A stretch of 64,000 nt of DNA from Styela clava. Taxonomy: Eukaryota; Chordata; Ascidiacea; Stolidobranchia; Styelidae. This document shows, in pieces, positions 43,401-64,000 of the stretch. Position numbers and translations under genes: made by a program. The stretch's first letter is position 1, and every line of letters begins with the position of its first letter. The notes beneath the pieces are model-generated. The model was given only the letters and a program-made list of their open reading frames with translations, did not search any database and had not been told where the DNA came from. The stretch lies in contig NC_135257.1 of NCBI RefSeq assembly GCF_964204865.1, positions 4,588,001 to 4,652,000 on the forward strand, read 5' to 3'.

Positions 43401-46400
43401 ATGGTCAGTTCATCCAAGAATAATAAATACTATTTTGGTTTGATACTAGTTTAATTCAAAGCATAACTAAATATTGGATAATTACAAACATGATAACAAC
43501 TGGCAAGACACACAAATTTTAGTTTCTCAAATATTTTAATGCTATGCAAGTTTTTACATAAGTTATAACATACCAATATATATATATATTCTTTGAAATA
43601 AATTGAAATTTTTTAAAACCTGCTAATGAGTTGGTATATTGCTTTACATAGCACAGATCATTTATATAGATTCCAGTAAATGGTCTTTTGATTTGCTGTG
43701 ATTCTCCACTGGCTATCTTTGCACACATTTGTAAGTATTGATTCCATTATGCCAAGATGCTCATCGGAGTTTGGAAATACGTAGAAACAGACTTTGCAGT
43801 TCCGAAATCTTGATCCTTGAAAGCAGGCAATGGCATATGCCCACCTAAAACTTAACTGTTTTTGTCATATTTATAGTATTATTTTTCATATATTTGTGTT
43901 TTTTAGTGATTGAATGTGAACCTCTGGAACAATCTCAGTTTACAAGTGAGACTTCATTTAGTTGTTCTAATGAAGCTGTCATTGGCTCTGAATGTGTCTT
44001 TCAGTGCCAAGAGGGTACCCGATTACCTGTATCTTCAACTTCATTTTTTTGTAAGGATATTGACAGTGATCGTATTGCAGCTTGGGATCCTCCTGTTGAA
44101 AGTTGTGTCTGTAAGTAGAATTGGATTAAAGTGATGATATGCTATGGTAGTACAGTGATACCTCTGTAGTTGAACATAATTCGTTCAGGATTGGTGTTTG
44201 ACTAACGATTTGTTCAAGTACCAAATTTTTTGGGATATGGGAAACTATCATACATATTTCAATACATTGCTTCGTATTCCCAAAGACCTAAAATATTAAT
44301 AAAACGTGTACTTAAACAACAATAATTGCTGTCGCTGCCTGCGCAACATTAGCTTTCTTTATCATATCCTTATTTTTCAAAGGCGTTGAAATGGTAGACT
44401 TCGCTATGTACTGTAAGACAAAATCAGACACTCGAAACACCTTAAATATTTCACAATGATTTCTTTTTTCAACTCGATAGTAGTCCTCACTGTTTTCAGC
44501 ATGCGGCCGTGTGCTCGGGTCGGCATGGATGTTCAAGCTTCAAATTTTGTCCGAGTACTGCAGCATTTTCGTCTTGAATTTTTTGGTCGGCTCCCAAATT
44601 GTTCGAGTTTCCAATCCTTAGCTTTACCGATGTATCACTGTACGTGGATTTTGTATTCATTCATTTATGTCAAAAGCACAAGTTGAATACTTCAAATTTT
44701 TCAATGTATCAATCATAGGTTTCAGAAATATGCATTATGTTTTATCTTTTATTTCACTTATATAATTTAGACTTACCTATTGAGTGCACCAGCCATTTGA
44801 GTGGACATTCAGTTGAATGTATTAATGCTATTTGGATTGATGGTGGTTGCAATAATGACGGTATTGATGCTCCACCAAAGCTTTCTGCTAGTAGGATATC
44901 AGAATTGGAAAACATACCATTAAGGTTTGATTACAATTATTTACAGGCCTAGGCTATTGTATCTATTTATGTTGCGTCTATCATTCAATTTATCTTATGC
45001 TGTCCATTATACTGCTGTCTGTTTTGCCAGTGACTTGCTGCAGCAATTTGAAGGTTTGAAATCAAGTGCAGTTAATGGGGATTCAATATCGCAAAGGAAA
45101 TGCGTAGGATTTGGTGAGTTTAGGAATATATAAAGTATTTTTACATCGCATTTTTTGGACTGCTTCATTGAAGTACTTCTTTGAAAGATAAGTAAGTACA
45201 AGTTCTAATCTTAATATTGTTATCGTAAACTGTTAATTTGAAATAGTAAATGAAATAGGAGACAAATTAGAACAGGGGTCACCAAACTACGGCCCGCGGC
45301 GTAATTTTCCGGCCCGTAATAACACGCAAAAATTGCGAAATTTTTTTTTCAATGGAAATTTTTCCGAGCATTGTCTTCCTTGTTTATTTGATAATAAGGG
45401 CCAATCAGCAAGATGCAAAAAAAGTGACTTAATAATAGGCCTTTTCGCATCCGCTCAGACACTTTTGTCACCTTGATAGATTCAGTCTTGGTTGTAAACA
45501 TTACTTCGTTTTTGCGATTTTGAATGCTATTCGTTAGTTTTTGGTTGTGTTTGGAAAATTTGAATCAAATAAGTCAATCATTATTTGCCTCCTTAAGAGT
45601 TTTAGTTTTAATAGTAGTGATGAAAAATTAGTTTAGAAATAGCTCTGACAAATTAGACTAAAATTATCTATCGATGCGAAACGTTTTCCGCGAAAGATGC
45701 ACTCGTATACTTGTGGCGCGTGCTTTCGACGAAACTGTTTACGTTTCTTGCGCTGAAATGAACGACGAATGTGCATGTTGCGCTAATAGTACTGTGATTC
45801 CTCGCGTACTGCTGCAATTTCACAAGTCACACTAACTTTTGTACTGCCTAAATGCGGATATTCATGTGGGTATGTTACAAACAAATTAAAGTTCATTCGA
45901 TTTAAATAAAAACTGCACCAGTGGATAGATCTGAGTGAAAATAAGAAGACAATATCAAGTTTATAAAAAACGGTCTAGAAGTAACAAAGATATCGGGATT
46001 TTAGTACCGCCCGACAGGCCAATTTTTTCCATAAGGATTGTATTACTTTTTGGATAATAACTGTAATAAATATGAAAAAAGAACACATATTAATTTCTAA
46101 TCTTTCAATCTGCGTCACATCTATGGAATATTGAGACTATTTCAGGATTTTATTCTGGCAACGGTCATTGACACCGCCGAAAGTTCGTCACAAATAAGCG
46201 CTGGAGTTGTGCATGTTAGTTTGACATTGGTTCATTGTGGGTAATAATTAAAGATGTTCTGATAGAACAAACTTCATAAAAATTGGTAAGTATCAGGGAA
46301 ATACACATGTTCACATAAATTTAATTGGTGTCCATAGACAATATCAAAATTTGCACTACGTATAACTTGAAATTTATGCGCTAATGAAAAAAATCAAATA

Positions 46401-49400
46401 CCAGATAATAGTTGTTTATTTATCTAAATTATGTCAAAATTTCATGGAATTCCAAGGTACCGCAGGCAGTCCGTAGTCGTTTATATGAGCGGTATTCCAA
46501 CGCGACGTAAAGGTACATAGCAGAAGTGATGCGTACATATTTTTTGGCGCGAAAAAGTGGATTTTTTAACATGTCTAATTCATGGCAGCAACAATTTGCT
46601 AACAGCTAAACTCAGGATAGTTGAATAGATATAGAAATCTTGTATATTTGTTTCCCTAGGATGTTCTCGACCTATTAAACCTTTATAAAGGTTTTGCCAG
46701 TTTTCCCAATCTTCTGTGTGTTCATTGTTTATGTTTTGTGTATGATTTTTTGCGGGAAAATCAAAATGTACTTGTTATACTCATATATTCTGCGATAGAG
46801 ATAGAATTTAATATTCAAGTCCTCAGAAATGTAGAATATATTTATTGTTGAATAAATTGAATGGATTTCCAAACTTTTGTGAATTTATTGTATTGCATTG
46901 ACAAAAATATTTGTCCGGCCCGTTTCAACACAGTTTGAGTCATACCCGGCCTGCGGTCAAAAAAGTTTGGTGACCCCTGAATTAAAAAAATGAATAAATA
47001 TCTTGAAAAGCATACACCCAGATATTGCAGCTATATTTTTGCATTTACAGCCTATCCGGAGACTTGTACCAATCTTGATGGACCCCATACTGATGCATGT
47101 CTGATATCACTTTGGCTGATTGCGGGCTGTTCGCAAGAGGGTACCAGACATCCCCAGAGCCTCGCAAGTGCTCAACGTGAGGAATTGAATTCAATGAGTT
47201 TAAGGTATCACTGAATAAAACTTCTCAAGTGCATTTTTCAATAGATAGTTAGATACTAATTTATTTTGAATGTTATTCCACAGGAATGTAATTGATGATT
47301 TTAATAAAACCTACGAAGATGCAGCCAGTGGAATTGATTTAAAGCAACTCCAATGTTATGGATTGGGTATGCTGTAGTTTGAAGCATTTTTGTGAGATCA
47401 TGAGGTATCTTGAAATAGAAAATACTAAACTAACACTGGTATACATTATTGTGTTAATACCGTATATTGATAGCGGACATATTATATTTGCTCACTGATG
47501 TTTGTGTTAAACGTATTGTATTATATAATGGTAGGTGGCAGATTGATATATTTAACTGCAATTAATGAAGCTCCAAGAATTTGTCAAGGTTGTACTCTCT
47601 CGAATCATGTTCAAATATAATAATTGCATCACATCATTTATCTGATTTAGTGTCATGCTTAGATCATGCTATTATTAGCATTCAATATGTAGCCTCTTCT
47701 TGAATTCCAAATGCTCCATGAGAAAAAATAACTGCACACCCATGCTAAATTTTATCTTGGTTTTTCATGGCTCTCCGATAAAAGTATGGTGAAAAATACT
47801 TCTATACTACCTCAACTTTGCATGTTGTTGATTCGATTGAAATTTTTTTTTTTTAGTCTTTCCTACCCATTGTATGAATTACAACGGTCCACACTCTATT
47901 GAATGCCTTGAAACCATATGGCTGTCTGCAAAATGTTTAGAAGAAGGAAATGACTCTCCAGAAAAGAGAGATGAAATAGAATTTACTCGATTAAATGGTT
48001 TGAATTTGAGGTGCATGGGATATTTGAGTTTGAATTATGTGGTATTGTTGTCAAACATTAAAACCTACATTATCTCAATTCTTATTGAAAAGTATTGGTA
48101 AATGACATTCACTTGAATACTTCCCTTGATGTATCAAATGTAAATAAATATAATGTCAATTAATTTATCTGAATCAAAAAATTTTAAAGTGAGATTTTTT
48201 TCAGAGATATTATCAATGAATTTAACAACACTTTTGCATTGGCTGATGGTGGAGATGAAGACAAGCAGATGTCCTGTTTTGGAATGGGTATGATATATTG
48301 CCACCTATATAATATGCTATTTTTCAGGCTTTTTCTCAACAAATGTTGTTTTAATCATGATCGAAATATATTTCTAGTGTACCCCACAAGTTGTATAAAT
48401 TATTATGGTGCTCATAGCATTGATTGCTTAAAAACAGTTTGGAATAGTGCAACATGTACACCTGAGGGTTCCGAATATCCAGAGAAACTCAGTACTCCAC
48501 AACATGAAAATTTGAATAATAAAAACTTGAAGTAAGTTTCAGACCTACTATACTTCATTTTAGTTTTATTTAGTATTTTTAAATACAACTGGAGGGAATA
48601 TTATCTATTAGAGTATTAAAATAATTTTGCATCATATTCTAAGAAGAACAGCTTGTTTGAAGTGTAATAATCAAACCACAGGTTTTCCAAGCATGTTCAT
48701 TTTCATTATATTGCTTTTTTGATTTAAATCATTCATTTTATTCTCTATATTTCTGTATGTGACCTGGGTTGTTTGGATGCTTTACCATGGTGGATACAAG
48801 ATTTTATAGTAGAACGGAATTACTTTTTTCCACCAATAAAATATATGTGTTAGCAAAAGCTCATACATGCAATCTTGATAACATTTTTATTGTTTCCATT
48901 TGAATAAATTTATTTGTATGTGTTGCGGTAATGTCTTTGCCATAGTTTAATTAAATGTTCTTGCATCTACTTTTCAAACAGAGAACTAGCAACTTTATTT
49001 AATGCATTAGCACAATCAGCAAATGATGGTAGTGAAGAAAATCAACTCAAATGCTTTGGAATAGGTAATGGCAATAATGACATTTACAATCTTTTTATAT
49101 TTGAACAATAAAAACTGTTTTAGTTATATTGAACTAATGTGTAATGATGTTTTAGTTTATCCTGAAAACTGTGAAAATTATTATGGATCTCATTCTGTCG
49201 ATTGCTTGAAGACGATGTGGTTATCTGCAAAGTGTACACAACAAGGAAGCAAATATCCTGAAATTAGAGACACAGCTGACTTGGCACGTTTGAATGGCTT
49301 AAATTTGAGGTATTGGAATTTTATAAAAATCAATATTAGTAATATATTAAAACAAAATATTTATTTTTTAATTTATGTTGCTTTTGGATTCAGGGAAGTG

Positions 49401-52400
49401 TTATTGGAGTTCAATGAGACGTATAATGCTGCAGAAAGTGGTGATTCAGCCAATCAAGATTTTTGTTTTGGGATGGGTATGATACGAATAATCGCACATG
49501 TTTTCTTCAACAATATCTGTTAACTAATTTATACATTAATTTATGGTAGTTAACAAAACAAAATGAAAAGATATAAGCTAAAAGATGTTAATTTATATAC
49601 AAAAACTTTTTTCCTGATTTTGTCAAGGTAGTAGTCACAAAACCACACTAATATGCTTATCTATATTTTTGTTTCATTTCATACACATGTACATGACCAA
49701 TGAACATAGCATCATATATTAGTTTAATTTTTATTAAATATCCATATCATATTTTTTAGCTTATTTTATTTTTTCTTCATATACTTGGGGAATGATAGAG
49801 TATATTATTTTTTTCAGCATATCCCATTAACTGTGCAAAATACTATGGCTCACACTCTCTCGAATGCCTTGAAACTATATGGTTGTCTGCAAAATGTTTA
49901 GAAGAAGGAAGCAAATATCCTAATAAACTTGATGAGACAGAATTGAACAAATTGAATGAACTGAATCTAAGGTTAAACATTATAAACAAAAGTACCATAT
50001 GGATTTTGACCAGTCTGTTATAATTGTAATTCTTTTTCCTTGCACTTTTAGGGAAGTGTCTCTGGAGTTCACCAATATATTTGATGCTGCGGAAAGCGGT
50101 GATGTAGATAGTCAAGGCTATTGTCTTGGAATTTGTAAGTGTGAATATTAGAAGTCCAAAAAACATGCTGTTGAAGTATGCATTTGTTTGTGTGATCCTA
50201 TATTTTGTGGATCAATTGTGTTTTTGTATGAGGAATAATTTGAAGTTATGTATATATTAGTATTTTGCTAATTATTTATTAAAAGATGTAATATTATTAT
50301 CAAAAAATTGATGGACACAAACTCAAGTTTCACTATTGTTATTTTATGTTTAAAGTATTATTTTTTTCAGTTTTATAACTCTATAGCAGGGTTTCCCAAA
50401 CTGTGTGCAGCCAAATATAAAGATTTCTTATTTAATGTCTGCTGATAGGTGATGTATTTCGTAACAATATATATATATATATATATATACAGAGTTTTTA
50501 ATTTTGCCACAAATTCTGTTAATTAACTTCGACACTATTTATATTTTTTGTCATCAATTTCAGAGAGCGAGTGTTCAACGATTGTCATTAGAAATATATA
50601 TTGGTACAACACATACAATATACAGTACACCAAAGTAATTTTTTAATTTTTTCATGATTCTGCGAATATTAGTTTTATGAGCTTACAAAAATTAAGAGCT
50701 AAAAACGATAAAGACAAGGAAATCTTGTTTCAATTTTTTTTACAGATGAAACGCATAATGTTTGCGGAAAAGGGATGAAATAAAACTTTCATTAGCAATA
50801 GGTGTGCCGTGACTTTTTTTTATCTCGTAGTTAGTGTGCAGCATATTGTAAAAGTTTGGGAAACCCTGCTCTATAGCATAATTGTATCGAGGAGGATATT
50901 TAATATAATACAAAATCTACATTGAGAAGATTTAGTATTGATGATCATACTCGATATTATTTTCCATTGCCACTGATTATCTTAAAAAATTTGCCAATGT
51001 ATTATTTTATTTTAGCCTATCCCGAAAGCTGTGTTAATTACTATGGGCCTCACGCTCTTAATTGTCTAAATACAATGTGGTTAACTGCAAAGTGTTTGTT
51101 GGAAGGGAGCAAATATCCAGAGAAAAGAGATGAAACTGATTTGTCTCGTTTAAATGGATTAAATTTGAGGTAACCTTTCTGCATACCAATTGTGATTGTC
51201 ATCTTTTAATTCAATGGTGGTATTATGTTTTCAGAGAAGTCATAATAGAATTCAACAATACTTTTATTTCTGCTGAAAATAATGACCCAGATAATCAGAA
51301 CTACTGTCTGGGATTAGGTTTGTTAATGAATATCTTTTTTTTAGTTTCTTTTTTGCCTCTGGTTCGCTGATCCATTTTTTTTTCAGTTTATCCTGATGAA
51401 TGCACAAATTATTATGGTCCGCATCCTGTTGACTGTTTGAAAACAATTTGGTTCTCTGTGAAATGTTTGGTAGAAGGAACCTGGTTTCCAGAGAAAAGAG
51501 ATGCTTCTGAGATAGCTCGTTTAGGAGATTTGGATATCAGGTATGGGCTAATCATTGATGATAGTAATTCAATCTGGAATGAAGTTTAAGTTCATTATGT
51601 TTGTCCTAGTGTGGATTGTGATATTTGATTTATGTTACACCTCTTTTTAAAAAATTATTTTTTAATCATTTCACAACCCTGTATTACATACAATGTCCAT
51701 AATTTTCTAATTTAATGTATTTAATTTGAAATAATTCCATTCTGTCTTCTGTCCCTCAATTCTGTGCCTGTACTGGAAAGAAATCGAATTGAAATTTTGA
51801 GTCAATGCTTTATATCACCTGGGTAAAGCTAGCAGTCAGTTCTAGAAGACAGTTATTGTTTGAGTACTGAATTTTCAAACTTATCATATTTGTATGCATC
51901 AGAGAATTAATTTTGGAGTTCAACAACACCTTCAATACTGCTGAAAATGGTGATGTCAATAGCCAAGAGCATTGTCATGGAATTTGTGAGTATTGTGTAT
52001 TTATGTGTGATAGTGGTTTACAATTCTTCCATCTTCCTGAAGTTCATGCAGCAAATTTATTGTTAAATATTTTACTATTTTTCCAGCATATCCTGAAAAT
52101 TGTCAAAAATACTTTGGCCCCCACTCTCTAGAATGTCTTGAAACGATGTGGTTGTCGGCAAGATGTCTGAGGGAAGGATCTAAATTTCCAGCTAAAAGAG
52201 ATTCTAATGATTTATCACGTCTGGATGGCTTGAATATTAGGTAATTTTTTTCTAGCATGGTTCAACAATGTTTGGTGTTTAGAACTAGCTCCAGTTCGCT
52301 GGATAATTCTTAGCTCAGTTTTGGATAAGTTTACATGTTTGACTTTGTTTTTATAGAGAAGTGGTCTCTGAATTTAACTATACATATCTTGTTGCTGATA

Positions 52401-55400
52401 ATGGAGATTCAAATGAACAAACTTTCTGCTTTGGAATTCGTAAGTTTTTTTTATAAAGTAGTTTCAATCCTTGCGATAAACTTCATCATTTATTTCACAA
52501 ATTTTAAGTGAATACTAAAATAGCCAGAAGGGAATTATTATTTTCCCTATTTTTCCAGTCTATCCTTCAAACTGCGAGAAATACTATGGCCCTCACACTG
52601 TTGAATGTCTCGAAACAATATGGTTGTCTGTAAGTTGCTTGGAAGAAGGCAGCAAATATCCAAGTAAACTAGATATGACAGAACTTGATCGACTAAATGG
52701 TTTAAATATAAGGTAAATATTAGGATATGGTGACCGTACATTTGAACCCATGTACATTTGAACCCATGTGTATATCCGCGGGTTCAATCTATATGCGGGT
52801 GTTAAACCCATGGGTTAGGGTTAGTATGGGTTCAAATATCCGTAAAACAAAAAAAAATTCCATAGGTGCAATAGTAGGCAGGTGCAATTGCCATGGGTCC
52901 AAATGTACGTGGGTTCAAATGTAATGGAACCTTAGGATATATGCACACATGAAAGTAAAAATATATTCTTTATGCAATATTTTTCTATTTAGAGAAGTGG
53001 TATTGGAGTTCAATGACACATTTGCTGCTGCTGATGGAGGCGATGCCAAATATCAGGAATTTTGTCTTGGAAAATGTAAGATTTTTTTTTTGAATTTCTA
53101 TTTTACTGTCAAAAGTGATTCATTCAATGGCATTTAGGTGTAATGCAGATTTATATATCTATATTTTTACTCTATATATAAAACAAATCATATAATGTAA
53201 AATTCAGCTTACCCTGTGAATTGTGAAAATTACTATGGCCCTCATTCTGTCGAATGCTTGAATACAATTTGGCTGTCTGTTAAATGTTTGGAAGAAGGAA
53301 GCAAATACCCTGAAAAGCGAGAATCTTCAGATTTAACTCGATTGGATGGCTTAAATATCAGGTATTTTGCATAATTTTTTATTGACATTTTTTTTGTAAA
53401 TAAACTATAAAGTTATCCTTTTTCCATAATTCAGAGAAGTTATTACAGAGTTCAATAATACTTTCATAGCTGCAGACAATGGAGATCAAGATAGTCAGAA
53501 TCTCTGTCTTGGAATTGGTGAGTCTACATATTTATCTTAATGTCACTTTCATGGTGACTTCATGGTAGACGGAACAAGGGTATTAAATTTTATCATGATT
53601 TGTTCTTCTGTTTAAAAAAAATACACGTAGTACGAGTTATAATGTATATTTAGTTTATCCAACAAATTGTATCAACTACTATGGACCACATCCTGTTGAA
53701 TGTTTGGAAACAATGTGGTTATCAGCTCGATGTTTAGAAGAGGGGACCAAATATCCTATGAAGCTACAATCTGCAGATTTGACTCAATTAGATGGTCTAA
53801 ATATCAGGTATTTTGGAATACACAATTTATTATTGAGGTTTTATTTGTAACGTGCCATTGACAACTTCTAGGCTCTGCTGGTTTTGTGTGTTTGTATATT
53901 CGTTATAAAATATTAATATTCAAAATAACAAATATTTCATTTTCAGGGAGGTGATTCTTGAATTCAATGCAACATTCAATGCTGCTGATAATGGTGATGC
54001 CGATAATCAAGAATATTGCCTTGGAATTTGTGAGTAACTGTAGTGAAATTGACCATATACCTAAGATTGGTAGAAAATTGTTTTTTATTTTCGTCTGTCA
54101 TTTTAGCATATCCTGAAAATTGTCAAAACTACTATGGTCCACACCAAATGGAATGCTTGAAAACGATATGGTTATCTGTGAAATGCTTGGAGGAAGGAAC
54201 GGAGTATCCAGAAAAAAGAGATTCTTCTGACTTGGCACGCTTGGATGAACTAAATATAAGGTACGGTAGTTTTCTGATAAAATTACAAAACAGCTAAACG
54301 ATTAAGCAACAAAATTATGATCATGGATATAGGTTATTGTTTTCAGGGAAGTGATTTCAGAATTTAATGACACATTTAATGATGCTGATAATGGGGATTC
54401 AAATAATCAAGAATTTTGTCTTGGACTTGGTGAGTCTTGATCATATGATATAATTAAATCATGTACTCTATTCATTTGCTATAAATTGTTGTTAAATTAT
54501 TTTACAGTTTATCCTTTTCACTGTTCGAATTATTATGGTCCACACACAGTTGAATGTTTGGAAACAATATGGTTATCAGCAAAATGCTTAGAAGAGGGAA
54601 CAAACTTTCCAGAGAAAAGAGATTCTTCAGATTTGGCTCGTTTGGATACTTTAAATATAAGGTACCAAATTTAAGAGAAGGGCGATTAGGACTAATGAAT
54701 TAATTTACTTTTATTTATAACCGGATTGATATTATTGTAACTATTTTTACCTGTTGTATGCTGCCGGCAAACATAGTTAGAAAACATTGCCAACATTGAT
54801 ATTTAGAAAGTTCAATAAATTTTTCTGCTAGTCAAAAGATATAATTGTTGCCTTTTATATTAAATTGAAAACATCAATTTACATAGGTAAAATTTCAAAT
54901 ATTTACAGATACTTTTACCTCTTATCACAGCCATCATTCATTGGTATTTCAAGTGTAGTATGAATGTAAAACATATTGACATACTGACATGCCATGCAAT
55001 TTGTTCTGTATATTTTCTTTTTTCTTTGAATTGTTAGTTTGCCAAAAGTTTGTTTTATACTATTTTAACAGAGAAGTAATTTTAGAATTCAATGAGACAT
55101 TCACTGCTGCTGATGATGGAGATAAAGTGAAACAGGCATATTGTCTTGGAATTGGTATGTTTTTTGCACTCATGAATAAAAGATAGCATGTTTAGAATGT
55201 TATGGAAAATTTAAATTTGGTTTGCATCTAACAACATGCAGACTTAGTGTAGGATTGAGAATATTAATCCTGTTTAGATCTAATAGTATTGAAATTTGGG
55301 TCCTGTTACATCAGTGGTTCTCAACCTTTTACCGCGTACCACTTTGCTGTTATTTTAACTCTGGCCGCGTACTACTAAAAAAGTCTCTTTTTGGCGCGAG

Positions 55401-58400
55401 GAACAATGGCACAAGACACGCGTTTTTATAATGTAATAGAGATTTATGGGATTTTTGTTTGTTTTGATGTTCAATAGATTACCCTCTTCACTGTGAAAAC
55501 TACTATGGCCCTCATTCTATTCCATGTCTAACAACAATATGGTATTCTGCTAGATGTTTGGAAGAAGGACTAAAGTTTCCTGAAAAAAGGGATGAAGTAG
55601 AACTACTACGCTTAGATGATTTAAATATAAGGTTTGCTTGAATAACTATATTGATTATATTTTTGTAGGCAAATCCTGCGCATATTGTGTACACATACAA
55701 GTTCAATGCATTAATATACTAGTTTTCATATAAATTAGGATACCTTCTATATTTGAATTGTCTTTTTTTACAGAGAAGTAATATCAGAATTTAACAATAC
55801 TTTCATTGCTGCAGAGAATGGTGATTTGGAAAATCAAACTTTTTGTATTGGTTTCGGTGAGTCAATGCTAACCGACAAGCAAGTTTTTATTTTGCACAAA
55901 TAAATTTTTAGACTTTTTTGCCGGAAAGTCAGAGATTCCCATGATTTCAAATAATGTTCAGGTTATCCGGAAAATTGTGTGAATTTGTACGGTCCTCACC
56001 CTGTTGAGTGTCTGGAAACAATGTGGTTGTCTGCTAAATGTTTGGAGAAAGGTAGTAAATACCCAGCTAAAAGAGATGAGACAGAATTGCGTCGTTTAGA
56101 TACTTTGAATATTAGGTAGGTAATTAGTTTATTAATTATGATAATCGTAAATTTTGGAATACTTGGAAGTAGCTCAAATAACTCTCTCCAATTTTTACAG
56201 GAACATTGTTGTTGAATTTAATAACACATTCATTGCTGCTGACAATGGTGATCCAGAAAATCAGTCTTTTTGTCTCGGGATTAGTAAGCAATTTTGTGAT
56301 ATTTTCCTAATTGATAATGATAAATACAGTTTTCAATTGAATATCATTTTTAAAATTTAAAATAATAGTACTTAAAGTATAATTGTGATGGTGAGGCATA
56401 TTTTTACTCTTCTATGAGGCGACAAATGCAAAACTGAATGCTGAAAATGTTCCTTGAAAATATGTTGAAAATGTTGCACTATATAAATAATAATATTAAT
56501 CATTGTTTTTAATTTATTTTCAAAATAATATTATTTATTAGGTTATCCTACTAATTGTGTGAACTATTATGGTCCTCATTCCATTGAATGTCTGAAAACA
56601 ATATGGTTGTCTGTAAAATGCTTGGAAGATGGAACTAAATATCCAGAAAAAATAAGTACAGCTGAAGTGGCTCGAATAGACAAGTTAAATATAAGGTCTG
56701 TCATTTTATTAACATCTGATATGTTCTTGTTTATTCTATTATGCTTCAAATAAGAATTCATAACTTTTATTTTAGAGATGTTATTGTGGAATTTAACGAT
56801 ACGTTCATTTCTGCTGACAATGGAGATACAGATAATCAAACTTTTTGTCTTGGCATTGGTATGTGATAAAACACAACAATATTTAGGATGTTGTCTTAAT
56901 TGATCTACTCTCTGGTAGAAGTTTTTTTTTAAATTGATCAACTTTATGCTATTACTTAAAAATTTTAGTTTGTGTCTAATTTTTAAGTTATTAATTTATT
57001 GAAGGGTTTGAATCAAATTTAATTGTCCAATGATAATTGTTATCTGTTATTATTTATCACTTGTTTTTATAATATACTAATATACAATAATGACTTGAAT
57101 CTCATTATTGAATAGATTCTAGTTTGAGAAATTTTTAAAATTTTGTATAAATATGTACATTACAAATTAACGCAAAAATTTGACAACGGTATTGTTTTAA
57201 TTATTACAGGTAAAGCACATTATTGTCATTGTCTGATTTCATCTTTTGTCTGATTTCAATTACTCGTGATGATACTTTTTCAAATTATTAACAATAACAG
57301 GAATTTTATACATTCAAATAATTTAATAAATTTTGTCATACCGTTAGTGCCGCCTGATATTTTTAGGAAATTGGAGAAGCAACATATCAAGATTATTTGC
57401 CATTCCTTTTAGGAACACCTACTTGGTTTCACTTAGCGAATATCACATCCATCTAAGTGTAATTTGTACTTGATTTGTTTGCATACACAAATCATAAAGT
57501 ATTTTTCAATCAGTGAATGTTACATCATATTATTCTTGCTCATGTTGTTCCACAAGTTACTAAAAAATAATTTTTATTTGCATGTTTTTGTTTTCAGCAT
57601 GATTAAACCTTTTTCTACTATGTTTTAGCATATCCCAATGGCTGCACCAATTATTATGGTCCTCATCCAATTGAATGCTTGAAAACAATATGGCTATCGG
57701 CTAAATGTTTGCAAGAAGGAATTAAGTACCCTGACAAGAGAGAATCTTCTGATATTGCACGGTTGGATATTCTTAACATAAGGTATATTGGATTGTTTTC
57801 AAACTATTATTGATAGAGAATCATACTGTTTGAAGTTTATTCTGATTACCTATTTTAGAGAAGTGATCTTGGAATTCAATAATACATTTCTTTCTGCTGA
57901 TAATGGTGATACAGATGGTCAGACTTATTGCCTTGGAATTGGTAAGTGAAATTTTTTTTAATTTCAATGAAGATTTTTTGTTATATTTAAAACTATTTTT
58001 CATGCAGTTTATCCTTCTCATTGTGTGAACTATTATGGTCCTCATCCAATTGAATGTTTGGAAACTATATGGCTAGCTGCTAGATGTTTGGAGGGAGGTA
58101 CTATGTTTCCAGAAAAGAGAGACTCTGCTGAATTGCTACGTTTGGATGACTTGAATATAAGGTTGTTGTTTGTCATTTGTTCTTTTTTCATATTTTCTAC
58201 AATTGTCATGTGGCGACGTAGTAGTCCCATTTTCTTGCAATGTAACTTATCTGAAGTGGTTAGGAACTTCATTTAAACGAAATTCTCATTTAACTCTTCA
58301 TTTGTAGTATAATTTTATATGAGGTTGTATTTTATTTGTATCCAATATGTTATTTTTCTGTTTGTAATCGCAGGAATATTTGTTAGATTTATTAGTTTTC

Positions 58401-61400
58401 TCAAGTATTCCCAAACTAATCCTTTGCAGGGAAGTGATTTTGGAATTCAACAATACATTTGTATCCGCTGACAATGGGGATGTGGATAATCAGACTTTTT
58501 GCCTCGGAATTGGTAAGCGGTTAACTGTTAACATGTACCATGATAAATGCTATTTTTATGATGGTTATACTTGTAGGTAATGTTTACAGGTTAACTGTTG
58601 CAACTTCATATAAATTTTGTGTGTATTTTGTACGCCATCAGATCAACGGTAACAATTTAAATATTTTTAAGCACATGAAGAAATCTTCATTTTCTCAGGT
58701 TTTCTGTTGCTCAGTGCTTGTCCTAATATTGTACTAGTATTTTATCTACGAAATATGTTTGTATAAATTGATCAGTCACAGTCATACTATGCTAGGTATT
58801 GTAAAATATAGATAATCACTGGGAGTGGGGCCAATTTGCTAAACTGATCTCTTATCAGCACAGCTGATTTATGGAACTAGGACTAGAGATGTACCAATGT
58901 ATTGGGTATCGGTTATCAGTATCAGCATGGATGGCCAATTTGAATTTAATATTCAAATATCGTTTTTTGTTTTGTTCATAAGAGTGCTGAATATCGCATA
59001 CACATCCTACCACCTACTACGTTTTGATTAAAAATATTTCACAATTATTTTATTCACTTTTTATCTTAATCGAAGAAAGACATGTGACAATAAATTACAG
59101 CCAACATAAAAGGATTTCAATTAGCGTCAACTTGAAGTGCTCATAACACTGCAACTTACGGTAGTCCAAAATAGTTTGTGCAGCAGCGGCAATAAATCTA
59201 GAAGCAAATTGTGTCGTAATTATTTGTTCTCATCTTTGGTTTCGAAAGTGACCGAACATAAAGGGAAATTTTTGCATTTCATGCAAATTGATAGCTTAAA
59301 AAATAGCTCTTAGATATTATTTAGTATTTATCGCGGATTTTTTCAAGAGCATGGTGTTGTTGATGACAATATCGTTCAGTTGAAGTTGGCTGTATTAATT
59401 TATAATCCAAAATCAAAGCATAACCGCTGTCATGAAATATATAAATCCTTGCCGACTCGAAAAATAAATTACGATTTTCGGTCTTATTATTTCTTTGTCA
59501 GTGGCCAATGGAAATTTGGGAATCGAGTTCACTTATTTGATTATGGCGATGATCGAATATTAATATTTATATTTTCAGAATTAACGAATGGTTTCGTGAG
59601 TAAAATAAAAATCAAAGTCTGTAGAAGCAGAACAATTAATTCTTGTGTAGAGGAATACCGGTAATTGTGGCGATAAACAGTCAGAATTTATATCAAAAAT
59701 TAGCTGTATCAAAAAGTGTGTGTGCTGATAAGGACTTTGATTTTCCTGTATAATTTAAAACATTCCACTGGGCGCATAGTTGCTCTTTCTTCTGTGCTTT
59801 CCAAGATACATCACAATTCATAGGAATGAATACCGTAATGTTTATTAAGTCTCTCTTCTTAGAAGCGAGAAGACATTAATTTCAATATTATCACACATGT
59901 CATTTGTATTCATAGCTGCTTCACAATGATAATATTATTAAGCTTAGATTCTATGTCCCTGGATTTTGAAAAAGTTAAATAAATTTATGTGGTGGATTTT
60001 AGACTGTTTTCGCAATTCGAGAGCCGAAAATATATTTTTTGAATGTATTTGAAATAGTCAAGTAATTGGTTATGACCATCCCTGGGTATCAGCAATATCG
60101 GCCATTTTTTCGGTATCAGTAATGTATCGGTTGAATGTAGACCGATATTCCCGATATATTCAGCTTTTTAATCTGGCCAAGAATTATTTAAAAATTAATT
60201 TAGAATACAAATGTGGAAATAATTTTTTGCCTGGAGAGATCATGTTAGTGGCATTTGCCTCGTTAACTCCATGCCCGTTCACACCTCCCCGCGAATAGAA
60301 ACGGTAACAAGATTCTGCTCTGTTTTCAGCTAATTTGGCTATTTTTGATGCCAAATTTTATTATATTATTATTATCATCATTTGTTATTATTGACTTTCT
60401 AATAGGACATGGTGATTATAAAGAAATATACCAATTGAATATTTTCTAATATGTAAAATACAAAATACGATGTTATATTTGCACAAAATCCTGCACAGGC
60501 AACTCAAGGTATCAGTTTCCTAGGTTAAGTAAAAATTTATTTACTTTACCATCTACCGTAGCCAAACCCTAGAATATATTTTTTTCGAGCTGAGAAGGCT
60601 ATCGTTGTAACCCGTCTACCCTGTAATTACATAGTATCGAAATATTGGTATTGGAATATCAACAACATCAGCGTTTTTTTGTTGGTATCTGATTGGTATC
60701 AGTGACAAAAGTAGTACATCTCTAATAAGGACATGACTGACCATGTATTCAAGTTATGTCATTTGTTTTCCATTGAGAAGGTATAGATATAAATTATATT
60801 TGATGCTCCATTCTTAGGGAGACTGAATAAGCGAGTGATTATGTTTTCATATCGTACCAATTAGCTCAAATTTATTTTTCTCTAGATATAAAGCTTAAGG
60901 TACATGAATGAAACTTTATGTTTAAGCAAAAGTTTCAAACCATACCAGTGTTATATGACACACACACATTTTGATATTAAGACATGAGTGCTTCTATTTA
61001 ACAAGTATAGAAGATACAGTTTGGAGGATAGTTAGCATAATTTCTCATCTTTCATTCCGTGACTTACAATTTTCATGCAACCATGATTCTAAAAACAACT
61101 CCTCTTTCTAATATTACTTTATTAAGATAGTTACCTAATACCATGTAAATCACGATTTAATTAAGCCATCAGATCATCTTTCCTTAACATTGCAATAAAG
61201 ATGGAGTTTCCTCATGCTACATCATCGTATGACAAAAATTCACTGTTTTGTTTTATTTTCAGTTTATCCTGAGAACTGTACCAACTATTATGGCTCCCAC
61301 TCTGTTGAATGCCTAAAAACAATATGGTTTTTCGTGCAATGTTTGGTAGAAGGATCTAAATATCCTGAAAAGAGGAATGAAGATGAATTAAATCATTTGG

Positions 61401-64000
61401 ATACTTTGACTATTAGGTATTGATTATGCATGTAAATCATGATCTAGTTAAAATTGCTTTTAAATGCTCATCCTATATATTTTATAAGGGATGTAATAGT
61501 GGAATTCAACAATACTTATATAACTGCTGATGCTGGTGATCCAGAGAACCAAATGTATTGCATTGGATTTGGTATGTTCTTTTGTATTCAAATATTTTTT
61601 TGAATTCATTAATGATTGTGCAATTTTTACTTCATTATCCAGCATATCCTGAAAATTGTGAAAACTATTATGGTCCTCATTCTATCAAATGTTTGGAAAC
61701 AGTGTGGTTGTCTGCCAGATGTTTGGATGAAGGAAGCAAATACCCCGAAAAAAGGGATAAAATTGATTTAGCTCGTTTGGATACATTAAATATAAGGTAT
61801 GTGGTTCCAATTTTAATATTTGCTGTTTATGTTATAAAAATGAAATTTTCACATTGTTTGATTAAATTTTTTATGTATTTTAGAGAAGTGATATTTGAGT
61901 TTGACAACACTTTCATTGCTGCTGACAATGGTGAACCAAATAATCAAACTTATTGTTTTGGAATGAGTGAGCCAAAGTTTTTCTTGCTTTTTTAGTATTA
62001 TTTACCGGTATATGTTCCATATTATTTTTAGATTGTGATATTTATTATTTACCGTAAGTATTGACTTCGATTTTCTCATTTAACTCTCTCGCCGCTCGTT
62101 AGTCCATATGGGATTCTCAACGCTATTAAGTCTAGCACATGGTAACCTACTGTTAATATCGCTCTTAGCTGTTTATTGACGTAATGCCCTGATATGAGAG
62201 AAGCGATAAAACCTTCCAGCCGTGACGCAAAGTGCGAATCGTATAAATAGCGTGGATTTCAAAATCGCCTGTCAGACGTCTGAAAATGTCGACTCAGCTC
62301 AGACAGAAAATACTCCTTTATAACGACTTATTATTGCTTTAGCATGTATTTTCAGTCATACTAACTATCCCTGATCATTCCTGGCGCTGTGTTGTTTTGA
62401 TAAATATGATTTCGACTGCTCCATAGTTGGCAGAGGTATGGAGATTTTTTGTATGTAAAAAAAACGTAAAATTAATGGTAATTTTAACGCGTGAATGCGC
62501 GTATGAGATTGTTTACGTCGTTCTACGCGCATTTCCGTCGAAAAAATTTAATTTTTTTGCATTGGGGGTGGTCTGTGCAGTAATAATAAGAGCTGTGACG
62601 TCATCAGTATCGGTAATTTGACCTTGAACTTGACAATACTGTAAATACAATTGTGAATTTCAGAGTAATAACCATTTATGCTATAATAGTCGTTTCGGTA
62701 TTGTTATGTTAGGAAAAACTTGACGAAAACGTTGAAGAAAAAACTAATTAATTAGGAATTAATTATTAACCCTCTACTGTACACAGAATATCTCAAAGTC
62801 CAATTTTTTTTTTAGAAATTTTTGAAATTTTTTTGCAAAATTTTTTTTTTGAGGAGTGTGTTTTAAAGATATATTGCTGAATAGAACTCTAGCAGACGCT
62901 TTCAAAAAGCCATGATTGAAGCTTAAGGGCTTAATGGTTGACAAAAAAAAATAAGTTTAAAAATACCCATAAAATGGTCAGGGATTGGAGCGGTCGGAAG
63001 GTTAAGTACGAACATGTGTATTTTGTGTTCATGCTTTTAAATTTATGACATTGTGGAGTTTAAGATAAATATTGAACTGATCTGTTCGGTAACAACAGGT
63101 TTTGTTTCATAATATATTGGACAGCTTTTTATTATATTGATTTTTTTTAATTATTGCACAAAATTATTCATGAATTAACTCATCACTAGTTAAATCACAA
63201 GAGAATGATGCCTATGTATATGGAAATGAAGGGGAAATGTTACAAAAATATGACTTCACTTCAATTGTAGTAAAAATGTACTTTGGACTTCGTTGTTCAC
63301 CGTGTAGACTTATTATGTGAATATTTCAGTATTTCCCAAGAATTGTACAAACTATTATGGACCTCATTCAATAGCCTGTTTGGAAACTATATGGATATCT
63401 GCAAAATGTTTGTCGGAAGGAACTAAATATCCAGAGAAAAGAAATCCTTCAGATTTATCGCGATTGGATAATTTGAATATAAGGTAAACTGTCAGAAATA
63501 TTGATAGTCTTCAAACAAAATACATATGAAATGAATAAATACAGAAATGAGATTGTATTATTGCTGAGTTGATTTGTTGAATTAAATGCAGTGAAAGAAT
63601 AGGAAATTAATTTTCTAATATTATTTTTATAGAGAGGTCATTATAGAATTCAACTTCACATTTACTACTGCTGACAATGGTGATGTAGAAAATCAAACGC
63701 TTTGTCTAGGCATTGGTGAGATCTATTGCTATTTTGATTTTGTTGTTCATCGTATTCATTAATCTGTGCAGCTTGCATGGCATTACCAATTTGTAAAATC
63801 TTCCCAATTTTCAGTTTATCCTGCTAATTGTAACAATTACTATGGTCCTCACTCTGTTGAATGTCTTGAAACAATTTGGTTATCTGCACAATGCTTGGAA
63901 GAAGGAAATAAATTTCCTGTAAAAAGAGATGAAGTTGAATTGGGACGATTGGATGAATTAAATATAAGGTTTTATTAGATACATGCTTATATTTACGGCA
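34366..64000 (+). CDS. Large secreted protein: CCP modules plus 79-residue four-cysteine repeats (partial gene, 3' end outside)
   Basis: Model: candidate signal exon 34366-34462, nine six-cysteine CCP exons (36800-44110), then 23 repeat units from 44771 to beyond the window. CCP exons are symmetrical phase 1-1; repeat exons are phase 1-2 (154 bp) and 2-1 (83 bp), so every junction keeps frame. About 7.4 kb of coding sequence is visible. CCP modules mediate protein-protein contacts in complement, selectin and adhesion proteins. The 79-residue unit (consensus pieces NYYGPHSVECLETIWLSAKC, YPEKRD, LDxLNIREVILEFNNTF, ADNGD, FCLG) I cannot assign to a named family. No transmembrane segment is visible before the window ends. 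An extracellular matrix, coat, adhesion or immune-type protein is possible; function is inference. Confidence 0.85.
35426..35770 (+). mobile_element. hAT-like non-autonomous repeat, copy 2
   Basis: Starts CAGTGGTTCTCAACCTGGG and ends near AAAACCCATGG. The interior aligns with 24780-24960 (see that copy). It lies in the proposed first intron. Confidence 0.55.
36304..36346. repeat. (AAC)n/(AAT)n microsatellite
   Basis: A run of AAC triplets passes into AAT/AAC triplets. It lies in the proposed first intron. Confidence 0.9.
36800..37063 (+). CDS. CCP-like module 1 (exon)
   Basis: Acceptor TGTTTTTAG, donor GTGAGT, 264 bp, phase 1-1. Six cysteines (NKHC, VMTC, GTVC, RYHC, MQC, GAC) spaced like selectin-type CCPs, but with a long insert between the fifth and sixth. 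This is the most divergent of the nine. An in-frame ATG at 36781 lies inside the acceptor tract and is unlikely to be the start. Confidence 0.8.
37064..37918. other. Intron after CCP 1
   Basis: AT-rich intron of 855 bp; no repeat or exon recognised. Confidence 0.6.
37919..38137 (+). CDS. CCP-like module 2 (exon)
   Basis: 219 bp, acceptor CTTCACAG, donor GTGAGT, phase 1-1. Six cysteines (VFC, ELC, ALC, DFVC, VVC, AQC). The insert before the last cysteine is Asn/Pro/Gly-rich. A 68-bp intron separates it from module 3. Confidence 0.85.
38206..38430 (+). CDS. CCP-like module 3 (exon)
   Basis: 225 bp, acceptor TTTTTTTAG, donor GTAAGT, phase 1-1. Six cysteines (YDC, ESC, TTC, VTC, ISC, PSC) and a Trp-rich segment (SEWWPEPP) before the last one, where CCPs keep a conserved tryptophan. 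Sequons NTT and NVT are present. Confidence 0.87.
38431..39497. other. Intron after CCP 3
   Basis: 1,067 bp, AT-rich; short ORFs only, nothing recognised. Confidence 0.6.
39498..39728 (+). CDS. CCP-like module 4 (exon)
   Basis: 231 bp, acceptor AATTTCAG, donor GTATAA, phase 1-1. Six cysteines (VLC, FHC, LAC, LSC, LTC, PNC); GVWTSEGF supplies the conserved tryptophan before the last cysteine. Confidence 0.86.
39729..40663. other. Intron after CCP 4
   Basis: 935 bp, AT-rich, nothing recognised. Confidence 0.6.
40664..40885 (+). CDS. CCP-like module 5 (exon)
   Basis: 222 bp, acceptor TTTCAAG, donor GTAAGT, phase 1-1. Six cysteines (RVC, YSC, TEC, YHC, VVC, YPC). The usual tryptophan before the last cysteine is missing (VRVEYYPC), and the acceptor tract is weak. 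Confidence 0.84.
41154..41348 (+). CDS. CCP module 6 (exon), selectin-like
   Basis: 195 bp, acceptor TTAATTACAG, donor GTTTGT, phase 1-1. Six cysteines with the compact selectin-type spacing (EVTC, SRCNFAC, EVTC, FPDC). The DDDGNGEW block places tryptophan just before the last cysteine. Same length and pattern as module 7, 88 bp downstream, so these two probably arose by a local duplication. Confidence 0.9.
41437..41631 (+). CDS. CCP module 7 (exon), selectin-like
   Basis: 195 bp, acceptor AATTAAAG, donor GTATAT, phase 1-1. Six cysteines (VTC, LDC, SSCTFTC, ITC, PAC) and DPDDDRRGSW, paralleling module 6. Confidence 0.9.
41900..42978. mobile_element. hAT non-autonomous element, 1,079 bp
   Basis: Ends CAGGGGTGGGCAA and TTGCCCACCCCTG are perfect 13-bp inverted repeats. 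The 8-bp target duplication ATCTATAT is exact at 41892-41899 and 42979-42986. No transposase ORF. Internal CCAGCGGTTCCCAAACATTT near 42434 suggests a second hAT-like piece nested inside. It lies in the intron between CCP 7 and 8. Confidence 0.93.
43142..43345 (+). CDS. CCP module 8 (exon)
   Basis: 204 bp, acceptor ATATTTTAG, donor GTAAGA, phase 1-1. Six cysteines (ITC, VSC, SVC, ITC, VAC, SLC); AEWSREF carries the tryptophan. Same length as module 9. Confidence 0.88.
43907..44110 (+). CDS. CCP module 9 (exon)
   Basis: 204 bp, acceptor GTTTTTTAG, donor GTAAGT, phase 1-1. Six cysteines (IEC, FSC, SEC, FQC, FFC, ESC); AAWDPP precedes the last. Last CCP before the 79-residue repeats. Confidence 0.88.
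44153..44640. mobile_element. Mariner/Tc1-type non-autonomous element, 488 bp
   Basis: CAGTGATACCTCTGTA at the left and the complement of CAGTGATACATCGGTA at the right give 14 of 16 matching terminal bases. TA flanks both sides (44151-44152, 44641-44642). Located in the intron between the last CCP and the first repeat unit. Confidence 0.75.
44771..45113 (+). CDS. 79-aa repeat unit 1
   Basis: Exons 44771-44924 (154 bp) and 45031-45113 (83 bp). This is the most divergent unit: the opening Tyr-Pro is LPIEC and NYYGPH is replaced by LSGH. The second exon has QFEGLKSS in place of EFNNTF, so it lacks the sequon. All four cysteines are kept. Confidence 0.88.
45273..46979. mobile_element. hAT non-autonomous element, 1,707 bp
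   Basis: CAGGGGTCACCAAACTACGG at the left and AGTTTGGTGACCCCTG at the right are inverted repeats, with a GGCCCG-rich subterminus on both sides. Flanking octamers AATTAGAA (45265-45272) and AATTAAAA (46980-46987) differ at one base. No long ORF. Located between repeat units 1 and 2. Confidence 0.9.
47051..47366 (+). CDS. 79-aa repeat unit 2
   Basis: Exons 47051-47204 and 47284-47366. Also diverged (NLDGPHTDAC, LIAGC, CYGLG), but the pattern and lengths hold. The sequon is present as FNKT. The GD of the acidic loop is replaced by ASGID. Confidence 0.9.
47857..48287 (+). CDS. 79-aa repeat unit 3
   Basis: Exons 47857-48010 and 48205-48287. First unit close to the consensus (NYNGPHSIECLETIWLSAKC). 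Sequon FNNT; loop ADGGDED; ends CFGMG. Confidence 0.93.
48378..48531 (+). CDS. 79-aa repeat unit 4, first exon
   Basis: 154 bp. NYYGAHSIDCLKTVW with NSATC in place of LSAKC. It ends LNNKNLK, so the split codon is AA|A (Lys) rather than the usual Arg. Confidence 0.92.
48982..49064 (+). CDS. 79-aa repeat unit 4, second exon
   Basis: 83 bp after a 450-bp intron. LFNALAQSANDG replaces EFNNTFIAADNG, so the sequon is lost and the acidic loop altered; CFGIG is kept. The most altered second exon apart from unit 1. Confidence 0.9.
49156..49476 (+). CDS. 79-aa repeat unit 5
   Basis: Exons 49156-49309 and 49394-49476. NYYGSHSVDCLKTMWLSAKC; sequon FNET; loop AESGD; ends CFGMG. Confidence 0.94.
49818..50134 (+). 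CDS. 79-aa repeat unit 6
   Basis: Exons 49818-49971 and 50052-50134. KYYGSHSLECLETIWLSAKC; the second exon reads EFTNIFDA, losing the sequon. Donor GTAAGT; its last base gives a serine junction codon with unit 7. Confidence 0.94.
50387..50868. mobile_element. hAT non-autonomous element, 482 bp
   Basis: CAGGGTTTCCCAAACTGTG at the left and AAGTTTGGGAAACCCTG at the right. Exact 8-bp duplication CTCTATAG at 50379-50386 and 50869-50876. An (AT)n run lies at about 50466-50490. Located between repeat units 6 and 7. Confidence 0.94.
51016..51317 (+). CDS. 79-aa repeat unit 7
   Basis: Exons 51016-51169 and 51235-51317, separated by only 65 bp. NYYGPHALNCLNTMWLTAKC; sequon FNNT; loop AENND in place of ADNGD. 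Confidence 0.94.
51387..51985 (+). CDS. 79-aa repeat unit 8
   Basis: Exons 51387-51540 and 51903-51985. NYYGPHPVDCLKTIWFSVKC, ARLGDLDIR; sequon FNNT; ends CHGI, with histidine where others have Leu or Phe. Confidence 0.93.
52087..52439 (+). CDS. 79-aa repeat unit 9
   Basis: Exons 52087-52240 and 52357-52439. KYFGPHSLECLETMWLSARC; sequon FNYT; loop ADNGD; ends CFGI. Confidence 0.94.
52559..53075 (+). CDS. 79-aa repeat unit 10
   Basis: Exons 52559-52712 and 52993-53075. KYYGPHTVECLETIWLSVSC; sequon FNDT; loop ADGGD; ends CLGK. The intron inside this unit holds the TA-flanked element at 52739-52921. Confidence 0.94.
52739..52921. mobile_element. TA-flanked palindromic mini-element, 183 bp
   Basis: CATTTGAACCC at the left and GGGTTCAAATG at the right are perfect inverted ends, with TA on both sides (52737-52738, 52922-52923). 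The left end is doubled (ACATTTGAACCCATGT then ACATTTGAACCC), and the right end carries a mirrored variant. Mariner-type by target duplication; no coding capacity. Confidence 0.75.
53208..53517 (+). CDS. 79-aa repeat unit 11
   Basis: Exons 53208-53361 and 53435-53517. NYYGPHSVECLNTIWLSVKC; sequon FNNT; loop ADNGD; ends CLGIG. Confidence 0.95.
53654..54029 (+). CDS. 79-aa repeat unit 12
   Basis: Exons 53654-53807 and 53947-54029. NYYGPHPVECLETMWLSARC; YPMKLQ replaces YPEKRD; sequon FNAT; loop ADNGD. Confidence 0.95.
54107..54429 (+). CDS. 79-aa repeat unit 13
   Basis: Exons 54107-54260 and 54347-54429. NYYGPHQMECLKTIWLSVKC; sequon FNDT; loop ADNGD; ends CLGLG. Confidence 0.95.
54508..54661 (+). 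CDS. 79-aa repeat unit 14, first exon
   Basis: 154 bp. NYYGPHTVECLETIWLSAKC, SSDLARLDTLNIR; nearly identical in its second half to unit 13. Confidence 0.95.
55072..55154 (+). CDS. 79-aa repeat unit 14, second exon
   Basis: 83 bp after a 410-bp intron. Sequon FNET; loop ADDGD; ends CLGIG. Confidence 0.95.
55312..55415. mobile_element. hAT-like terminus in intron
   Basis: CAGTGGTTCTCAACCTTTTA followed by CCGCGTACCAC resembles hAT ends elsewhere in the window. No matching right end was found before the next exon; the stated end is arbitrary. Confidence 0.4.
55478..55856 (+). CDS. 79-aa repeat unit 15
   Basis: Exons 55478-55631 and 55774-55856. NYYGPHSIPCLTTIWYSARC; junction codon gives Asp before Tyr-Pro; sequon FNNT; loop AENGD; ends CIGFG. 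Confidence 0.94.
55962..56283 (+). CDS. 79-aa repeat unit 16
   Basis: Exons 55962-56115 and 56201-56283. NLYGPHPVECLETMWLSAKC; the second exon starts NIVVEF instead of EVILEF; sequon FNNT; loop ADNGD. Confidence 0.95.
56542..56858 (+). CDS. 79-aa repeat unit 17
   Basis: Exons 56542-56695 and 56776-56858. NYYGPHSIECLKTIWLSVKC; YPEKIS replaces YPEKRD; sequon FNDT; loop ADNGD; ends CLGIG. Confidence 0.95.
56859..57628. other. Intron between units 17 and 18
   Basis: 770 bp, AT-rich. No exon of either repeat type is visible on either strand. Confidence 0.6.
57629..57941 (+). CDS. 79-aa repeat unit 18
   Basis: Exons 57629-57782 and 57859-57941. First cysteine context PNGC; NYYGPHPIECLKTIWLSAKC; sequon FNNT; loop ADNGD. 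Confidence 0.95.
58008..58512 (+). CDS. 79-aa repeat unit 19
   Basis: Exons 58008-58161 and 58430-58512. NYYGPHPIECLETIWLAARC; sequon FNNT; loop ADNGD; ends CLGIG. Confidence 0.95.
58884..60724. mobile_element. hAT-like non-autonomous element, about 1.84 kb
   Basis: TAGAGATGTACCAATG at the left and GTAGTACATCTCTA at the right form inverted ends, with GGTATC/TATCGG-rich subterminal repeats. Flanking octamers ACTAGGAC and ATAAGGAC match at 6 of 8. A 94-codon ORF at 59380-59664 shows no motif I know. Located between units 19 and 20. Confidence 0.7.
61263..61571 (+). CDS. 79-aa repeat unit 20
   Basis: Exons 61263-61416 and 61489-61571. NYYGSHSVECLKTIWFFVQC; LTIR in place of LNIR; sequon FNNT; loop ADAGD; ends CIGFG. 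The acceptor of the second exon (TTTATAAG) is weak, but exon length and frame require it. Confidence 0.92.
61643..61966 (+). CDS. 79-aa repeat unit 21
   Basis: Exons 61643-61796 and 61884-61966. NYYGPHSIKCLETVWLSARC; EFDNTF loses the sequon by Asn to Asp; loop ADNGE; ends CFGM. Donor GTGAGC. Confidence 0.94.
62084..63001. mobile_element. piggyBac-type (TTAA) non-autonomous element, about 0.92 kb
   Basis: TTAA at 62080-62083 and 63002-63005. The left end (CTCTCTCGCCGCTC) and reverse-complemented right end (CCTTCCGACCGCTC) are similar inverted termini. No transposase. Its ends differ from the element at 952, so it is another family. Located between units 21 and 22. Confidence 0.6.
63330..63715 (+). 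CDS. 79-aa repeat unit 22
   Basis: Exons 63330-63483 and 63633-63715. VFPKNC-type opening, NYYGPHSIACLETIWISAKC; sequon FNFT; loop ADNGD; ends CLGIG. Confidence 0.94.
63815..63968 (+). CDS. 79-aa repeat unit 23, first exon (gene continues)
   Basis: 154 bp with donor AG|GTTTTA. NYYGPHSVECLETIWLSAQC. Its 83-bp partner and the rest of the gene lie beyond the right edge. Confidence 0.93.

Follow-up and report, generated by a model that had tools for sequence, protein, structure and literature searches.

The question raised by this locus is what kind of protein is encoded by a long run of similar cysteine-rich exons in Styela clava, whether the repeated module belongs to a known domain family and what such an array might do in an ascidian. 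A sequence-only reading of the 64,000-nucleotide stretch of DNA analysed here (the window) had proposed at least 23 tandem copies of a 79-residue, four-cysteine extracellular repeat, possibly an undescribed domain in a giant protein. Each unit was found to be split into an exon A (154 nt, acceptor phase 1, donor phase 2) and an exon B (83 nt, phase 2-1). A profile of exon A, seeded with six array units, was used to scan the window in all six frames and returned 23 first-half exons, all on the plus strand, with scores of 34.5 to 106 bits versus a top score of 13.0 bits in 10 Markov-shuffled control windows; all other printed matches in the window reached at most 5.6 bits. Second-half copies were recovered in near-complete form for 21 units, again all on the plus strand, and the divergent second half of unit 1 was matched partially. 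The 23 tandem copies at 44771-63968 thus comprise 22 complete units and the first exon of unit 23, and the proposed boundaries are exact, with exon A of unit 1 starting at 44771 and exon A of unit 23 ending at 63968. As proposed, every complete unit in the window is 79 residues long, and all 22 carry four cysteines at positions 6, 17, 27 and 76 (C-x10-C-x9-C-x48-C). Unit 23 has the first three of these, its second exon lying beyond the window.

The units and exons were placed by the profile scan together with exact splice sites and are given here as the total span followed by exons A and B, all on the plus strand. The array opens with unit 1, of an N-terminal type, at 44771-45113 (A 44771-44924, B 45031-45113), followed by unit 2 at 47051-47366 (A 47051-47204, B 47284-47366), unit 3 at 47857-48287 (A 47857-48010, B 48205-48287), unit 4 at 48378-49064 (A 48378-48531, B 48982-49064), unit 5 at 49156-49476 (A 49156-49309, B 49394-49476), unit 6 at 49818-50134 (A 49818-49971, B 50052-50134), unit 7 at 51016-51317 (A 51016-51169, B 51235-51317) and unit 8 at 51387-51985 (A 51387-51540, B 51903-51985). 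It continues with unit 9 at 52087-52439 (A 52087-52240, B 52357-52439), unit 10 at 52559-53075 (A 52559-52712, B 52993-53075), unit 11 at 53208-53517 (A 53208-53361, B 53435-53517), unit 12 at 53654-54029 (A 53654-53807, B 53947-54029), unit 13 at 54107-54429 (A 54107-54260, B 54347-54429), unit 14 at 54508-55154 (A 54508-54661, B 55072-55154), unit 15 at 55478-55856 (A 55478-55631, B 55774-55856) and unit 16 at 55962-56283 (A 55962-56115, B 56201-56283). The remaining units are unit 17 at 56542-56858 (A 56542-56695, B 56776-56858), unit 18 at 57629-57941 (A 57629-57782, B 57859-57941), unit 19 at 58008-58512 (A 58008-58161, B 58430-58512), unit 20 at 61263-61571 (A 61263-61416, B 61489-61571), unit 21 at 61643-61966 (A 61643-61796, B 61884-61966), unit 22 at 63330-63715 (A 63330-63483, B 63633-63715) and unit 23, exon A only, at 63815-63968. 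The introns are mostly short (median 96.5 nt within units and 125.5 nt between units), and at least one long array intron carries an inserted element. Between units 1 and 2, the intron contains an insert of 1.7 kb (45273-46979) with perfect 16-bp inverted repeats at its ends (CAGGGGTCACCAAACT), presumably, by its looks, a DNA transposon of the hAT type.

The array is under coding constraint. Among the 22 complete units, pairwise identity averages 55% (range 23-75%), unit 1 being divergent with 34% identity to its nearest neighbour in the window. Unit-to-unit divergence at codon positions 1, 2 and 3 is 0.32, 0.24 and 0.53, and dN/dS between units has a median of 0.18 and a largest value of 1.22 over the 171 of 231 pairs with dS between 0 and 3, the other 60 pairs being dropped. 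That the repeat is dead or not expressed is extremely improbable: the 1789 array residues contain no stop, an AG acceptor and a GT donor stand at the expected base of all 45 array exons in the window (23/23 A exons and 22/22 B exons), the dN/dS median is a signature of purifying selection, and the four cysteines are kept in Ciona.

Three gene models extend the array beyond the window. The S. clava NCBI model LOC120346538 (P0004) comprises two exons upstream of the array (S8 and S9, described below), units 1-9 and exon A of unit 10, at which it stops, and matches the window over its whole length. The start of LOC120346537 (P0001) falls within unit 16; this model continues unit 23 past the window end and runs through units 17-37. 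LOC120346536 (P0016), taken from another source, overlaps the last 11 units of LOC120346537 and adds 14 more (units 38-51 of the tiling), with one irregular 90-residue step. Overlapping units matched at 97% or better in 10/10 cases across the tiling's first overlap, in 7/7 between LOC120346537 and the window and in 11/11 between LOC120346536 and LOC120346537, for which the next best register gave 6/17. The giant size proposed for the protein is borne out to the extent that at least 51 units are reached when the window and the NCBI models are tiled, and that one Ciona model has 48. If the models tile as they seem, the Styela array would have at least 51 units, about 4030 residues, in addition to a CCP-like part of about 650 residues. 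Two further Styela models, P0002 (21 units) and P0003 (15 units), were not placed in the tiling.

The split annotation could be taken at face value, with several smaller genes instead of a giant one, since LOC120346538 ends in unit 10 and LOC120346537 begins in unit 16. We consider this quite improbable: the intervening units 11-15 are intact and share strand and exon phases with the rest, their splice sites being AG/GT. Several NCBI models start or stop within units or in intron-like tails, so that the separate genes look like truncated pieces of prediction. In the explanation that we favour, taken as a whole and with somewhat better than even confidence, the window would be the 5' part of one giant S. 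clava gene in which CCP-like exons are followed by the array.

These upstream exons, nine in number and rich in cysteines (S1-S9, 36800-44110, plus strand), have lengths divisible by three and phase-1 junctions. S6 (41154-41348), S7 (41437-41631), S8 (43142-43345, the first full exon common to LOC120346538) and S9 (43907-44110, which splices straight onto unit 1) together exceed the cut-off of the Pfam CCP/sushi family (PF00084) with E 2.4e-14 over four stretches. S4 (39498-39728) and S5 (40664-40885) together gave a Sushi score of 20.3 bits, just below the cut-off of 20.7, with the best stretch in S5. S1 (36800-37063, 264 nt, AG/GT, phase 1-1), S2 (37919-38137) and S3 (38206-38430) had no match in Pfam; S1 is termed CCP-like by its position and exon phase only. 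The S7-S8 intron contains a second insert (41892-42986) whose 21-nt inverted ends are 90% complementary (GGGGTGGGCAA).

Upstream of S1, the interval 17901-36790 was scanned for an ATG followed by a hydrophobic stretch and a phase-1 donor, and one such donor, with two overlapping ATGs, was found. The resulting weak candidate first exon (34366-34462, plus strand) reads MMNLKVHTCISVINTLHWVSSVLICIITPSDA plus the first base of a phase-1 codon and is signal-peptide-like. As the same scan returned four donors in the other 45 kb of the plus strand and none in the 64-kb minus strand, this exon is only a candidate and may have arisen by chance. The proposed extracellular location of the protein is supported, as far as sequence features can indicate it, by the Sushi match, by the invariant even set of cysteines and by the N-glycosylation sequons described below, with the signal-peptide exon as a weak candidate addition.

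Several mobile and repetitive elements occupy the first part of the window. Fragmented frames of BEL/Pao-type retroelements (Pfam DUF1759 and Pao peptidase A17) lie at 5432-8736, and diverged stretches similar to such frames by eye near 9149-10262. Ty3/gypsy-type sequences at 13161-16896 contain reverse transcriptase, RNase H and integrase (Pfam) in several frames, together with a zinc-knuckle frame seen by eye that had no Pfam match at E 0.001. A 171-bp unit is present in two identical direct copies at 12494-12836, and a 65-bp tandem repeat in about 2.6-2.9 copies at 17653-17840.

To which family does the module belong? Twenty-six diverse natural units were scanned singly against Pfam and NCBIfam. 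The best Pfam match was DUF7666 in one of the 26 units (E 0.03, 15.2 bits against a cut-off of 27), followed by AAA_lid_At3g28540 in one unit (E 0.06), with no other Pfam family listed; the best NCBIfam match had E 0.047, also in one unit. The earlier view that the module is an undescribed domain therefore held, no strong match to a characterised Pfam family being found. EGF, LDLa, TSP1 and WSC, which had been set aside by cysteine spacing, were indeed not among the matches listed for the 26 single units (Pfam E <= 10, HMMER filters on), and neither were PAN, ShK, saposin or other extracellular cysteine domains. Sequence searches of the PDB gave no credible match, the best profile match having E 0.2. 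The domain family is thus apparently uncatalogued, with no convincing match at the sensitivity used.

When whole arrays of four proteins were scanned instead of single units, at least one Pfam model exceeded its whole-protein cut-off in three of them: Chromo_2 (PF18704) and TRI12 in P0001, these two together with Bclx_interact and DUF3898 in P0016, and Sfi1_C in the Ciona model LOC108950895 isoform X20 (P0017). Chromo_2, with a cut-off of 25, scored 49.5 bits in P0001, 46.1 in P0016 and 19.0 in P0007 and was not listed for P0017; its matches cover about 32 of 68 profile positions, no stretch passes alone and none of the 26 single units is hit. TRI12 (a fungal efflux pump), Bclx_interact, DUF3898 and Sfi1_C likewise lack any stretch that passes alone. 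That such unlike families each match a fragment of the unit many times points to summed weak similarity and not membership, and we read the Chromo_2 score as a probable repeat-summing artefact. The precomputed Pfam labels (Chromo_2 and others) on P0001, P0002, P0003, P0006 and P0016 look spurious and could mislead annotation.

Protein searches with queries of 1106, 316 and 2442 residues, the query length setting the candidate lengths, returned 18 different, partly overlapping proteins, all from Styela clava or Ciona intestinalis. The first search scored the best 7994 candidates by shared words. The suggestion that similar patterns occur in other invertebrates was not borne out by these searches; as they need shared five-residue words, more distant relatives or a wider distribution are possible. 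No relative was confirmed in viral contigs or prokaryote genomes. The Styela relatives are LOC120346536, -537, -538, -545 and -548 and LOC144425696, -697 and -906, and those of Ciona are LOC108950895, LOC108950586, LOC100175212, LOC113474930, LOC113475320, LOC144744930, LOC144745010, LOC144745367 and LOC144745395. All are uncharacterized NCBI entries that share the same 79-residue four-cysteine unit in head-to-tail arrays and have no function or domain name, most models being cut inside the array; LOC120346538 is the gene of the window. Ciona and Styela units are 39% identical on average. The Ciona protein P0017 consists of 48 units and nothing else but short ends; as isoform X20 of a 53-member cluster, it raises the possibility of heavy alternative splicing of the array.

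The spacing of the units is near-invariant in both species. Successive units in the 18 proteins are 79 residues apart in 220 of 226 cases, 78 in two, and in four they are separated by 11-30 extra residues that look like retained intron. The fixed unit length without linkers that characterizes tandem helical repeat arrays (solenoids) is therefore present. Blind 79-residue stepping through seven of the 18 proteins, chosen for uniform spacing, found C6, C17, W22, C27, G31, P35, C76 and G78 in 130/130 units. N-glycosylation sequons are present in 87/107 Styela units, mainly at position 59 (18/22 complete window units, 81/107 unique units), and in 67/113 Ciona units, mainly at positions 37 and 50 (49 and 30 of 113 units, respectively). 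As sequons recur at fixed positions, the spacing of glycans would be periodic, with their place differing between Styela and Ciona.

Structure prediction over a multi-unit string, as had been advised beforehand, yielded an all-helical module; its four main helices lie at about residues 15-24 (containing C17 and W22), 40-47, 51-66 and 70-77 (containing C76) of each unit. The AlphaFold2 model of a 313-residue Ciona protein, which contains three complete units and parts of two, was built on an 11-row alignment and has a mean pLDDT of 93.0 with no residue below 70; its pTM of 0.74 does not fix the unit-to-unit geometry. A second model, of a 176-residue protein, shows the same elements with a mean pLDDT of 87.1, three of its five runs averaging 61-71. 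Foldseek searches with the two models gave no match with E < 1 in the PDB and nothing significant among viral models. The module is thus confidently predicted to have an all-helical fold without known relative at the sensitivity used.

The fold need not be new, as a known domain, e.g. an EF-hand-like helix-loop-helix or a small helical disulfide domain, might have drifted past recognition. Among the weak Foldseek matches (all with E > 1) are a few EF-hand-type proteins. These few are a lead only, as no calcium-loop pattern was found with two patterns in the window array and one in all 18 proteins, and no EF-hand family is among the listed Pfam matches. Chromo_2 has no stretch that passes alone, and models as different as those of a BH3 peptide and a fungal efflux pump show the same sum effect. 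A drifted known domain seems unlikely to us. We see roughly even chances that both the fold and the class of extracellular repeat are new: each module would have four helices and two disulfides, and the array, in strict 79-residue register and with N-terminal caps, would be an expandable rod of thousands of residues that was independently re-amplified, as an alternating A-B pair in those long arrays of Ciona that were examined and in some of the Styela repertoire.

Such re-amplification is suggested by a tree built from 65 units over 79 columns and displayed with midpoint rooting, in which the bootstrap had not settled and many forks are open. Window unit 1 groups with units 1 and 2 of LOC120346548, a Styela paralogue (98/95 for the branch), and 35 of 36 other Styela units form one group (95/97). 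Unit 2 of the window is a long branch placed among the Ciona units with almost no support; the Styela units do not form a single clade, as unit 2 and the units of N-terminal type are placed apart. The 26 Ciona units form two groups of 13 with modest support that follow odd and even unit number within each protein, as expected from the two-unit period of three long Ciona proteins, one of which, P0017, has an identity of 0.42 at lag 1 and 0.74 at lag 2. In Styela, a period of six units is seen in LOC120346537 (0.91) and one of two units in LOC144425697 (0.85 vs 0.72), and window units 5-22 have no multi-unit period. The grouping of unit 1, the groups of the tree and the periods together indicate that the first units, adjacent to the CCPs, are distinct and conserved by position and that most of the array arose by separate amplification in each lineage. 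Growth would have proceeded by duplication of blocks of one, two and six units.

Known systems resemble the predicted protein in part. SVEP1/polydom is a CCP/sushi-rich secreted giant with CCP modules in phase 1-1 exons, and the Styela protein shares the exon phase and the very long extracellular design but differs in that its bulk is the helical module and not CCP. TPR, HEAT, ankyrin and spectrin arrays likewise combine a fixed repeat length with no linkers and divergent N-terminal units, whereas the present unit has 79 residues and four cysteines, is probably extracellular and lacks a significant Foldseek match. FCGBP and mucins, with many tandem disulfide modules in a secreted network, serve as a working comparison, but their vWD, C8 and TIL modules are not among the Pfam matches listed for the 26 single units. 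The oikosins of the Oikopleura house are, according to the accessible text of PMC3390340, tunicate-specific secreted proteins, about half of them without known domains and several with CCP; the domains named there include no such module, and no Oikopleura protein is among the 18 homologues.

What, then, might the array do? The joint explanation that we judge best, and hold to be somewhat more probable than all else combined, is a giant secreted four-cysteine helical array serving as a structural rod of ascidian extracellular material. The protein would be secreted, its four cysteines would form two disulfides that pin each unit, and neighbouring modules would pack in one fixed register. The near-invariant spacing without linkers argues for this register and hence for a capped array of helical repeats that forms a long rod or superhelix and carries N-glycans, and the distinct end units add to the expectation that the rod is stiff or springy. 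A fixed exon structure could also keep the module at 79 residues without tight packing. The CCP end might act as the binding head of the rod, which would most likely serve to build or cross-link tunic, matrix or mucous net, with rod length and glycan spacing setting the mechanics of the material. The accessible text of publications on ascidian proteomes, house proteins, the endostyle and metamorphosis names none of these genes (PMC13225635, PMC3390340, PMC9953650, PMC11988888).

The main rival is that the protein is a recognition molecule (immune, self/non-self or gamete), with the array as a diversifying surface varied by unit turnover and whole-unit splicing, and the CCPs acting as its effector or binding region. 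Immune proteins often contain CCP domains. Exons A and B of a unit together form a phase-symmetric pair, so that splicing could leave out entire units without loss of frame, and the near-identical six-unit blocks imply recent unit turnover. The isoforms point the same way (X20 of LOC108950895 represents a cluster of 53 sequences, and X2 or X3 appears in the isoform names of other models), but these counts are annotation and not read evidence, and the median dN/dS of 0.18 between units speaks against diversification. We regard a recognition role as doubtful, and a structural role in tunic, matrix or mucus as the likeliest.

The module defines a family of domains that is apparently not yet catalogued, from the sister group of vertebrates; its predicted fold is clean and its arrays reach thousands of residues. 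It accounts for a number of scattered, uncharacterized gene models of ascidians, some of which bear unrelated domain labels from summed weak repeats, and provides a testable model for the invention, capping and re-amplification of an extracellular repeat in separate lineages. It may also be a lead to the composition of tunics, mucous nets and ascidian matrices.
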